A stretch of 64,000 nucleotides of DNA from Cliona cf. orientalis (Eukaryota > Porifera > Demospongiae > Clionaida > Clionaidae), in NCBI GenBank assembly GCA_963930775.1, contig OZ005700.1:4419476-4483475 (forward strand). Direction: 5' to 3'. Position numbers and translations under genes: made by a program. The notes beneath the pieces are model-generated. The model searched no databases, was not told the DNA's origin, and saw nothing but the letters and a program-made list of their open reading frames with translations. Shown piece by piece: positions 16,101-63,456 of the stretch (its first letter is position 1; each line of letters starts with the position of its first letter).

Positions 16101-19100
16101 TATGCTCACTTGAGGAGTTACTATTTTGACGACGTATTGCCTTTACAGTGCCCAGGCAGGATTCAACAGAGGAGATGGTTCTGGATTTTATGCACTTCCT
16201 GGATCTGGTACAAGTGAAATATTGGCCCTGGGCAACACCAGCTATGTCAACATGTCTGGTGTGTGGCTGTTCAGGGTGGATGGAGATATCTCCATAGGAG
16301 GTAAATTTTTGTGCATTAATTGTATTGAGTGTCTATGGTATGGACTTGTTTTAGTTTGAGTTTGTAAACTGCTGAAATTAATTAAATGGCCACACCTATT
16401 ATTCAAACTTATGTACTATACTTATCAATAATTAACCCTTGCCGCAAAGCACCATCTGTCCATCTGCCCGTCTGTCTGTTGCAACCCCCAGACCCTCCTG
16501 CTAAATGATAAAGGTTGTCTGAGAGAAAGTACGCATTCGAGGTATACCCGGCATAAAGGAATAGTGGTCATAGTAAGTCCTGTCCTGTGGTGTAGTAACA
16601 TGCAGCTGTTGCTGGTCTGTGTTCACGGTTACATGTAATGCATAGTTCATATTAGGCATGTCATAGAAGCTTTCAGTTTATATAGTGACATAGCCGCCAG
16701 GTGCCTTCCCCTAGTCATAGGTAATGCACTGACTCTGAAGAGAACATCGCCATCCTATCATAACCATGTTCAGGTGCAGCTCCTGATATTGAACAAGCAT
16801 ACACGCGCGTGAGTCATACATGCATGCAAAAATTCACCACAGGTGGGATGCATTAATAGCCATCATAGCAACTCAATTGGTGAAAGAAAAAAAGGCATAT
16901 TCTGAGGGACATTCTGTAGCAAACATTACTCCCAATGTTAAACAATTGAATAAAACTGAAGCAGTGGCGGATCCAGGATTTCTGAAAGGGGGTTGTAGTA
17001 CACTCTTGCGCGCGAAGCGCGCGCGAATTTTGAGAAGCCACGCCCACTTTGGGGTATAACCACGCCCATTTTCGATCGTTTTTGAGACAAACTGCCAGCC
17101 CTACCAGTCCAATCGATCCGTTTTCGAACGAATTTTCTTCCAAAGCATTCTAAGGTGAGCCATAGTAGGAGTTTTCTTAGTTCTATAGCCAGAAAGGGGG
17201 GTTCCTTTTAGTTCATCATCAGTACTTCTTAGTGTTAGATGCAGCCCAAAGGGGGGTACACTTGCACCCCCCTTACCCCCCCTGGATCCGCCACTGTGAA
17301 GGATGAAGTAGGGATGGCAGGGTCAAAAAGTACACAAACTAGATTTGTAATGGATAATCGCATCTGCTATACATTCCTACGCTTGCTTTTCTCGATTATT
17401 ATGCACCTTGACGTGTTGTCGAGTGCGGCATGTGGGAGACACTCAGGTAGTTGTAACAATGGTTTGGGATAGTCAGTTTTAATTTGATTTAGTTGTATTA
17501 TTACTAGTTATTTTTGCATCCCTCAAAAAGCAAGCATATGGATGTATAGCAGATGCAATTATCCCTTACAAATCTTGTTTGTGTACTTTTAGCCCTGCCA
17601 TCCCTACTTCATCCTTCAATTTTATTCAACTGTTTTTATACTTGTTTCTATTTTTTGTTGCTCTTAGTATAATATATCAATGCCATCTTATATGGTTGCT
17701 CATTCAACTCTCAACTTCTGTCCAGTGTAATTAAGTAGCTAGTAGATGGGAGGTACCAAAGTTTGCACGTGTGCGCAAAGTCTTAGCCATGCCCTTCAAG
17801 ATGGCTGACAAAGAAGGCTGGTTTAGGCTGCCCAGGTAGCGGTGTGTTTCTTCTGTTAGGGAGAAAATCAAGTTGTGAACTGGCTGTTATGCTGACTGTT
17901 GAGGAGCCTCTTGATACGTAGTTCAGTGTACAGTGCTCAGCTTGCACTGGCCTAGTTAGCTATAGTTAGCTCGCGCAGGAGAGCCTGGCACAGTGGCTAG
18001 GCTCGAGGCTAGAACTGAGCGTGAGTATCTGAGCACTGAGCCAGCTAGCTAGCTACATGTACATAGCTGCGGTGGCCGTACGCACTGTGGTCCAGTTCAT
18101 GCTGTATCGCACGTGCCCCTGACCATAGTCGCATGACTTCACCATGGCAACACATTTGAGCATGTGCATTATATGATAGCAGGAGGCAGGGGCGTAGCCA
18201 GGATTTTCTGAGGGGGTTTCCTAACAGTTGCGCGCGAAAATTTTAATGACCATGCCCACTATTCGGCCACGCCGTCTAATTAACGATCGCCATTTTCAGC
18301 GAGAGTTGGCCAGATTCTCGAGATTTTGGCAGGGAAAAGCACAAAAGGAGGAGATCTAGGCTAAGTTTCAGGAGATTTTAGTGCCTGCACATTGAATTTG
18401 GAAACCAAGGGGGGTTTCCTGATGGCTAAATCATACTAACATATTACTGAATCTGACTAACAGGGGGGGTTTCCGGGCAACAAAGAAACAACTAAGCTAC
18501 GCCCCTGGGAGGGTCTGGTTAGTATGGCGGATTAGTTTCCAGGGTTTGTCCATAAACAAGCTCTTTTCATAGACACATGCATGCCTTTAGAAGCGGAAAA
18601 GCATTAAAGAAAGCTGAATTGAAGTTAAAGAATTACTGACCACCATGTGTAATCGGAGACGTTATATCCTCCGGACAGTGCTATAGCCACCACGCTTCCT
18701 TACATGTATCCATACCAATCCTAGTAATACACTGAGCACTCCTTATACCTATGCATGCAGTTGAGTAAACGTACATGAAATAATAATTATATTCCACTGA
18801 TCAGATATTGATGAGTGTTCCCTAGACACTGATGGGTGTGATCAGGGCTGTATCAACACTCCTGGAAGCTTTCAGTGTGACTGTATTGCAGGCTATGCTT
18901 TGAATGAGGATGGCTTCACTTGTGTTGGTAATTGTTTTATTCGCATGAAAAAGCTGCACTTTGTGTTAATTTCAGTCCACATGATAATATTATATTATAG
19001 ATATTGATGAATGTAATCTCAACATGTCAATGTGTCAACCTGATTCTTTCTGTGACAACGCTATTGGGAGCTACCACTGCATTTGTAATGTTGGCTATTC

Positions 19101-63456: not shown

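Follow-up and report, generated by a model that had tools for sequence, protein, structure and literature searches.

The analyzed window, 64,000 nt of the forward strand of Cliona cf. orientalis contig OZ005700.1 (GCA_963930775.1, positions 4,419,476-4,483,475), holds the larger part of what reads as one giant gene. A NIDO domain is followed by seven blocks, each composed of a run of EGF modules and three SRCR domains (a, b, and c), all joined in a single open predicted spliced frame. We term these blocks supermodules and number them sm1 to sm7 along the plus strand. Hidden Markov models (HMMs) of the EGF module and of the first and second SRCR halves, built from the window's own repeats, find 33 EGF modules, 21 first halves, and 20 second halves, all on the plus strand (E < 1e-3); the second half of SRCR 7c lies beyond base 64000, leaving only half of this domain inside the window. 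Together with one module added by eye (29179-29304, the first of sm2, which carries eight cysteines and stays under every Pfam cut-off), the EGF modules total 34. Pfam EGF_CA and SRCR score above cut-off on most pieces scanned; for SRCR (PF00530), whose scan covered five exons, all five exceed the cut-off of 26.1 bits, with single halves at 29.8-44.1 bits. Minus-strand genes were considered and rejected, as this strand has no EGF or SRCR-half HMM match at the same threshold and its long open frames have no Pfam match.

The exon structure is highly regular. In an automatic splice model, a few borders of which were hand-corrected with the AG/GT and phase rules in view, all 73 module exons between 18805 and 63456 are preceded by AG, followed by GT, and of phase 1-1, and they read through 3815 residues without a stop. 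Further upstream, three exons starting at base 6656 jointly match Pfam NIDO (PF06119, E 1.9e-31; the best stretch covers positions 99-185 of 186, and the query had three extra residues at one join), and the last of them joins the first EGF exon in compatible phase. NIDO and module exons combined yield 76 exons and one stop-free frame of 3970 residues. The gene begins upstream of base 6656 and runs on beyond base 64000; an earlier note on this DNA, made from the letters alone, had placed its start at 18805, at least 12 kb too far downstream. The regular borders and phases together with the open frame indicate that the array pattern is more than chance.

The SRCR order a-b-c is kept in 7 of 7 supermodules. 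This order, the places of the 21 domains (the last of them a half), and the EGF module counts before the triplets (3, 2, 8, 3, 8, 2, 8) had been read correctly in the earlier note. Counted as exons, the runs are 3, 2, 8, 2, 8, 2, 8, because one sm4 exon (40006-40224) packs two EGFs. The class motifs proposed there proved looser than written: S.YG occurs in 7 of 7 b domains, whereas C[YF]NNT[YF]GTVCDD matches exactly in only 2 of 7 a domains and the c motif, [10 protein letters not shown], in 4 of 7 c domains. In a tree of the window's SRCRs (92 columns), class b forms one side of a branch (supports 99/98) and class c likewise (96/95), as the note had expected of all three classes, while class a is the remainder, for which a single clade is not rejected (approximately unbiased test, AU p 0.151). 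Mean identity is 46.5-53.4% within classes versus 37.4-42.8% between them, and neighbors of the same triplet (41.8%) are hardly closer than distant domains of other classes (40.5%). Thus, clustering by neighborhood does not occur, and the domains group by class both here and in the two-sponge tree described below.

For the EGF modules, the place within the eight-module runs predicts sequence when all eight places are taken together (p 0.012) but not within the middle six (p 0.68), so that the expected correspondence holds for the outer modules only. The first EGFs of all three runs match each other, whereas among the last EGFs, said to match as well, only those of sm5 and sm7 do. Collinear descent of all eight modules in the long runs was rejected, the position signal being lost in the middle six.

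All 20 complete SRCR domains are split over two exons; in sm5, one exon serves both the b second half and the c first half. Group A domains are likewise each encoded by two exons, but the six cysteines of that group are not the rule here: 17 of the 20 complete domains carry eight, and the others 6, 9, and 10. Group B domains are encoded by a single exon and have eight cysteines, two of which lie directly ahead of GRVE and within LGC, whereas none of the 17 aligned first halves (of 21) has a cysteine at either place and two exons encode each domain. The six-cysteine domain is 5b (53433-53860), in which the TVC cysteine and one second-half cysteine are both gone, as expected if the two pair and the whole disulfide was dropped.

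Most introns are short: 58 of 72 measure 43-73 bp in a listing made before the last border corrections, and those at the supermodule joins from sm2 to sm7 span 56-268 bp. Long gaps occur inside NIDO (9133 bp), between NIDO and sm1 (2504 bp), between sm1 and sm2 (7990 bp), and within SRCR 4b (6310 bp). The first three would suit two or more neighboring genes, for example a NIDO-EGF3-SRCR3 gene (sm1) separate from sm2 onwards. We regard such a division as improbable, given that all exon ends are phase-compatible, that the fourth large intron cuts inside a domain, that 64 open frames of at least 75 aa in the long gaps have no Pfam match (shorter exons would escape), and that in a second sponge the first supermodule of contig C219 and the sm2-type one are at most 100 bp apart. 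Several short genes, the outcome that would have spoken against the earlier note, have thus left no sign. The long introns and the 5' region also contain dispersed repeats in both orientations that are 67-98% alike (e.g., 45829-46270 and 59977-59527) and are probably short transposons. The feature positions are collected in Table 1.

Table 1. Positions in the window of the NIDO exons, EGF runs, SRCR domains, and duplicated tract of the predicted gene.
Feature	Positions	Strand	Basis
NIDO exon 1 (VNTNGVVSF..), ends in phase 2	6656..6795	+	Pfam on three joined exons
NIDO exon 2, phase 2-2	15929..16099	+	Pfam, frame join
NIDO exon 3, phase 2-1, fits straight onto first EGF exon	16149..16300	+	Pfam, frame join
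Recent duplicated tract, copy 1 (3 EGF, SRCR a, start of b)	18779..20031	+	DNA identity
sm1 EGF run, 3 modules in 3 exons	18805..19300	+	HMM, exon model
SRCR 1a, two exons	19470..19855	+	HMM, exon model
SRCR 1b, two exons	19914..20337	+	HMM, exon model
SRCR 1c, two exons	20764..21188	+	HMM, exon model
sm2 EGF run, 2 exons (29179-29304, odd 8-Cys EGF; 30722-30847)	29179..30847	+	HMM, exon model
SRCR 2a	30898..31279	+	HMM, exon model
SRCR 2b	31332..31768	+	HMM, exon model
SRCR 2c	31828..32242	+	HMM, exon model
sm3 EGF run, 8 exons	32511..38552	+	HMM, exon model
SRCR 3a	38617..39003	+	HMM, exon model
SRCR 3b	39062..39479	+	HMM, exon model
SRCR 3c	39537..39945	+	HMM, exon model
sm4 EGF run, 3 modules in 2 exons	40006..40399	+	HMM; similar double module in sponge 2
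SRCR 4a	40459..40841	+	HMM, exon model
SRCR 4b, halves 44298-44480 and 50791-50955	44298..50955	+	HMM, exon model
SRCR 4c	51018..51446	+	HMM, exon model
sm5 EGF run, 8 exons	51507..52924	+	HMM, exon model
Recent duplicated tract, copy 2	52411..53550	+	DNA identity
SRCR 5a	52992..53377	+	HMM, exon model
SRCR 5b, first half	53433..53642	+	exon model
Fused exon, 5b second half and 5c first half, intron absent	53699..54040	+	exon model
SRCR 5c, second half	54739..54903	+	HMM, exon model
sm6 EGF run, 2 exons, the second with extra half module	54960..55300	+	HMM, exon model
SRCR 6a	55360..55722	+	HMM, exon model
SRCR 6b, 10 Cys, [10 protein letters not shown] insert	55869..56293	+	exon model, sponge-2 comparison
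SRCR 6c	56567..56982	+	HMM, exon model
sm7 EGF run, 8 exons	57046..58601	+	HMM, exon model
SRCR 7a	58659..59057	+	HMM, exon model
SRCR 7b	62774..63226	+	HMM, exon model
SRCR 7c, first half only; gene leaves window	63277..63456	+	HMM, exon model

A second sponge carries a gene of the same type. When the b-class profile was run against prokaryote genomes, six loci emerged, four of which belong to the bin "Cycloclasticus sp. symbiont of Poecilosclerida sp. M"; 92 SRCR matches lie on seven contigs of this bin. SRCR genes of the symbiont itself were rejected, as short phase-1 introns interrupt the modules and several minisatellites are present; the contigs are DNA of the host, hereafter sponge 2. 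PMC6474228 deals with eukaryote-like proteins in symbionts of this kind. The bin may contain other host DNA, as long-frame and short-frame contigs are both present among 39 others sampled. L001 and L003 were joined as C219, C147 is the reverse strand of L029, and C170 is L030.

HMMs trained on the window's first halves alone assign all 55 first halves on six sponge-2 contigs to the order a-b-c or, in two supermodules, a-b-b-c, with no violation of order. Moreover, 194 of 197 modeled module exons have phase 1-1, and 90 of 92 EGF starts have an AG in the right phase. In a joint tree of 76 domains, b and c are kept as clades (98 and 95, Shimodaira-Hasegawa-like approximate likelihood ratio test). 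As judged from this shared order, the a-b-c block scheme already existed before the two lineages separated.

The EGF runs follow a looser rule. On the longest sponge-2 contig they number 3, 1, 19, 2, 8, 3, 6, 3, and at least 5; odd EGFs like that of sm2 would escape the HMMs used, and the small counts may be low by one. Long runs range from 6 to 19 (complete ones: 6, 8, 19), and eight is hence not the set number that had been proposed. Of the adjacent pairs of runs, 12 have both classes settled within a single contig, and all 12 alternate between short and long (count by eye); this figure leaves out the first C219 pair (3 then 1), which touches an open contig end and, like the window's first pair (3, 2), does not alternate. 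Two long runs in succession occur in a chain of contigs described below (C147/C154, then C154). Mapped on the class trees, the short/long label needs a single change in class b (0 of 500 shuffles as low; support 40/48), 4 changes in class a (24 and 11 of 500 shuffles as low), and 2 changes in class c, where 6c and its partner fall on the long side as opposed to the short side in a quick joint tree. The label is thus only partly borne out by the trees.

Individual supermodules have recognizable counterparts. By tree, 2b (91/99) and 2c (96/90) pair with C219 domains and 6c with C147 (98/94), and 4c groups with six sponge-2 domains (88/85). Further, C147 shares with sm5 the fused b-c exon (393-734 of C147) and with sm6 the extra half EGF and the RICPAGD insert. 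Being discrete, these three features are the best evidence for counterparts; they make C147 collinear with the end of sm5 and with sm6, and the sm5-sm6 order thus predates the split. Assignment by identity is too noisy at about 50% identity and is biased for the half domain sm7c. NIDO gave no match in the sponge-2 bin by profile or by protein, in searches that had no positive control, and two queries against viral contigs found no relatives.

In one sponge-2 supermodule (L004, 6432-6836), a single exon seemingly holds the a second half together with the b first half, another intron loss of the kind seen in sm5. A GC-rich contig of Gammaproteobacteria SB0670_bin_10 (L005, 2097-11881) encodes three SRCRs whose halves lie a few bases apart, probably in a bacterial protein. 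At the edge of an otherwise bacterial-looking contig of Latescibacterota PNGco_C_bin1 (L006, 2-272), remains of a b-type SRCR exon are likely to stem from a third sponge or a chimeric contig.

The growth of the array can be read in three time layers, the a-b-c order being the oldest, a pair of supermodules with a short and a long EGF run the next, and partial tract copies the youngest. The middle layer has left marks in the distance between the linker cysteine and the EVC cysteine. In a, it is 21, 21, and 21 residues in sm2, sm4, and sm6 versus 25, 23, and 25 in sm3, sm5, and sm7; in c, 24, 26, and 25 versus 23, 21, and 21; in b (41, 27, 37 versus 34, 36, 46), there is no short/long split. Additionally, 1a, 3a, 5a, and 7a group in the window tree (87/81), a grouping that is lost in the two-sponge class a tree. 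Together with the alternation in sponge 2, the short-plus-long pair is likely the repeat unit. The two-supermodule unit suggested by the earlier note is thereby strengthened, whereas copying of whole supermodules is not supported as the recent process.

Just one recent event is visible in the window, and it is a partial copy. The sm1 and sm5 tracts (1.1-1.25 kb) are 93-94% identical in DNA including introns and end inside the first half of b; their five exon pairs agree in 667 of 690 bases and their four introns in 232 of 250 aligned bases. With a nonsynonymous divergence (dN) of 0.018 and a synonymous divergence (dS) of 0.097, the tract is a recent copy or conversion that is probably under purifying selection. 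This near-identical pair and the repetitive content are also what an array of unrelated SRCR and EGF exons, or a repeat assembly artefact, would lead one to expect. The unbroken frame, the low dN/dS of the copied tract, and the recurrence of the order in a different animal, assembled independently, already contradict that explanation, whose probability we put close to nil. With the sm1/sm5 pair set aside, the a, b, and c identity matrices across supermodules are uncorrelated (-0.09, 0.13, and -0.01), so that the order of the old duplications is not recoverable from the window; mixing among supermodules is likely.

In sponge 2, copying appears to act on a finer scale. Over the last 125 bases, first-half exons are at least 88% DNA-identical in 52 of 361 same-class pairs, compared with 0 of 361 for second-half exons (contigs C219, L004, L002, and L027-L029), although mean identities of first and second halves differ little outside b (a 0.685/0.683, b 0.776/0.706, c 0.692/0.682). 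The near-identical patches measure 145-245 bp and occur both between and within contigs. This looks like homogenization of first-half exons by conversion at the scale of single exons. In the window, only the sm1/sm5 a pair reaches 88%, and it is alike in both halves. The array would thus have grown by old tandem copying of the triplet, then of the short-plus-long supermodule pair, and then by patchy copying of single exons and short tracts.

The end of the gene has to be sought in sponge 2, as the window stops inside 7c and contains neither GPS nor 7tm_2. There, the ends of contigs C147, C154, C170, and C161 carry shared repeats whose orientations agree. C154 breaks off in (ATGT)n immediately behind the first half of a c domain, and C170 starts with (ATGT)n followed by an SRCR second half; repeats of at least 8 such units are otherwise absent from the seven SRCR contigs (60,395 bp together) and from C161. 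The C170 half scores 51.6 bits for class c versus 39.2 for a and 29.5 for b, by a scoring that is right in 68 of 71 leave-one-out cases, and joining it to the C154 half keeps phase 1 and gives a complete eight-cysteine domain. On C170, an HRM-like exon and a GPS (4.3e-11) come next. C170 in turn shares an end minisatellite with C161, which carries a GPS (3.6e-10) and 7tm_2 in two pieces (1.1e-11 and 1.9e-8). Consequently, the chain, as linked by shared end repeats, appears to end as an adhesion G-protein-coupled receptor (GPCR) with HRM-like exon, GPS, and 7tm_2, and the window's gene probably continues in the same way, directly after 7c or after one more supermodule. The first GPS, on C170 (3.3-6.9 kb), has no seven helices on its contig, and a further HRM-like exon (E 0.028) precedes the GPS and seven-transmembrane (7TM) region of C161.

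A number of observations weigh against one gene with such an end. The C-terminus lies outside the window, the 7990-bp intron separates sm1 from sm2, and neither a signal peptide exon nor the start of the NIDO domain was recognized upstream. The sponge-2 contig links consist of repeats at contig ends, not of reads, and C129 starts with an orphan second half behind another repeat, followed by an EGF, and thus probably also of class c. For class c, second halves of three bacterial SRCRs used as controls reach 47-52 bits, a range that includes the C170 score, although they score higher for a (55-59). The first HRM-like match of C170 is below cut-off (E 0.039), and no GAIN match was obtained on the chain contigs. 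The counterpart of sm7 is one of two neighboring C154 supermodules, between which the evidence is divided: the first shares with sm7 the patterns DVLLMN..IGQ.EGRVEIC in a and SNC..GD.RLVNGSS.LEGR in c, whereas the trees place 7a and 7b with the second (84/58, with the b join marked as a pair of long branches). Finally, a 57-bp phase 1-1 exon (phase by eye) encoding one hydrophobic helix follows an EGF run on C219 (27.60-27.68 kb).

This last exon bears on a different outcome, in which the same giant gene ends as a secreted matrix protein or a single-pass receptor. C219 carries sm2- and sm4-type supermodules, and NIDO is otherwise familiar from matrix and apical-surface proteins. The helix sits behind a minisatellite at the end of L001, however, where misassembly is possible, and the supermodules nearest the window end match the C147-C154 chain that leads to C170 and C161; we therefore consider an end without seven helices rather unlikely. 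The C219 end may reflect two kinds of gene, a splice variant, or misassembly, and one member of the family may be single-pass. On the whole, we favor, with some reserve, one giant gene with an old block scheme whose product is an adhesion GPCR, its ectodomain measuring some four thousand residues or more.

Related architectures share parts of this plan. NIDO occurs in nidogen, SNED1, alpha-tectorin, and mucin-4, mostly together with EGF modules, and nidogen proper has a G2 barrel and a YWTD propeller; we know of no SRCR domains in these proteins. CD163, DMBT1/SALSA, and other SRCR arrays among the PDB matches have the SRCR fold and the DD and E cation site seen in the window's a and b domains. 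No EGF runs or NIDO are named among the PDB matches listed, and the CD163 stretches shown are devoid of the C0/EVC cysteine pair. The earlier note knew of no named family of this plan. For Amphimedon, two adhesion GPCRs whose ectodomains carry several SRCR repeats have been published (Aq712029 and Aq715659; PMC4302439), and HRM is reported there for at least eight of 40 sponge Adhesions; the text of that paper describes neither NIDO nor EGF-SRCRabc blocks, and the window itself is without GPS or 7TM. The "Group C" sponge SRCRs of PMC10855680 resemble the window's domains in EGF_CA as commonest partner, in growth by tandem duplication, and perhaps in their extra cysteine beside the six-cysteine set. 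They differ in a replication unit of one or two SRCRs, compared with three of fixed order within a larger EGF-run unit, and in mostly three exons for linked SRCRs instead of two. Pattern receptors of Halichondria panicea combine SRCRs with EGF-like domains, and a figure legend lists NIDO among "other domains" without saying in which receptor, so that a related protein may already be drawn there (PMC8242945). A NIDO gene of Dysidea avara responds to symbionts and is not tied to SRCR in the text of PMC11229196. Sponge SRCR inventories have been published (PMC8242945, PMC10855680, PMC4704026, PMC6208332, PMC7308585), and EGFn-SRCRabc supermodules were not found in the main text of open PMC papers, that is, outside supplements, figures, and subscription papers.

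The cysteines outside the six-cysteine set suggest how the SRCRs are closed. An EVC cysteine and a cysteine at least 15 residues upstream in the same open frame are present in 21 of 21 window and 55 of 55 sponge-2 domains (a loose test); in 21 of 21 window domains, the upstream partner is the linker cysteine. Linker and EVC cysteines presumably sit where the first two strands of the SRCR fold lie side by side, and a predicted linker-EVC disulfide would close the variable hairpin of b. PMC10855680 defines Group C by seven conserved cysteines with an extra C1, and proposes that the extra unpaired cysteine of sponge domains forms bonds between molecules. Should this cysteine be identical with the one seen here, it would be simpler to assume that its partner lies just beyond the Pfam border.

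Loss of the cation site separates c from the other classes. In DMBT1 SRCR8, ligands are held via cations, to which residues including D1019, D1020, and E1086 bind; a change of either aspartate abolishes ligand binding (PMC7043408). The numbering of this paper (S1021, D1023, D1026) places the aspartate pair at C-DD-x-W-D. The CDD pair is kept in 10 of 14 window and 24 of 37 sponge-2 a/b domains, but in none of the 7 window or 18 sponge-2 c domains (pooled 34/51 versus 0/25; Fisher p 6e-9, not corrected for relatedness). Thus, a and b are predicted to bind cation-held ligands, and c probably has another role. In the working model, rods of calcium-type EGFs would space out the triplets; the a and b domains, mostly keeping the acidic site, would hold polyanionic ligands, and the c domains would probably pack or join. 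The protein would thereby attach to surfaces of microbes or matrix through many contacts, and tension on the GPS-cleaved part would be passed on as a signal by the seven helices.

SRCR genes number in the hundreds in sponges. The fuller picture, in which NIDO, seven or eight EGF-SRCRabc supermodules, HRM, GPS, and 7TM are combined in at least two sponges, supermodules duplicate in pairs, and first-half SRCR exons are converted while second halves diverge, seems to us evenly balanced between right and wrong. If true, it would describe a recognition array, half constant and half variable, that is coupled to a G-protein receptor. The gene would be a clear natural record of how a large modular protein grows, by triplet, then by supermodule pairs, then by exon-scale copying, and the homogenization of first-half exons, if real, provides a case in which conversion affecting only one half of a domain can be tested. 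If linked to a seven-helix receptor, this conserved array with its strict and readable block order would give basal animal lineages a concrete candidate for a receptor that recognizes its targets at several points.

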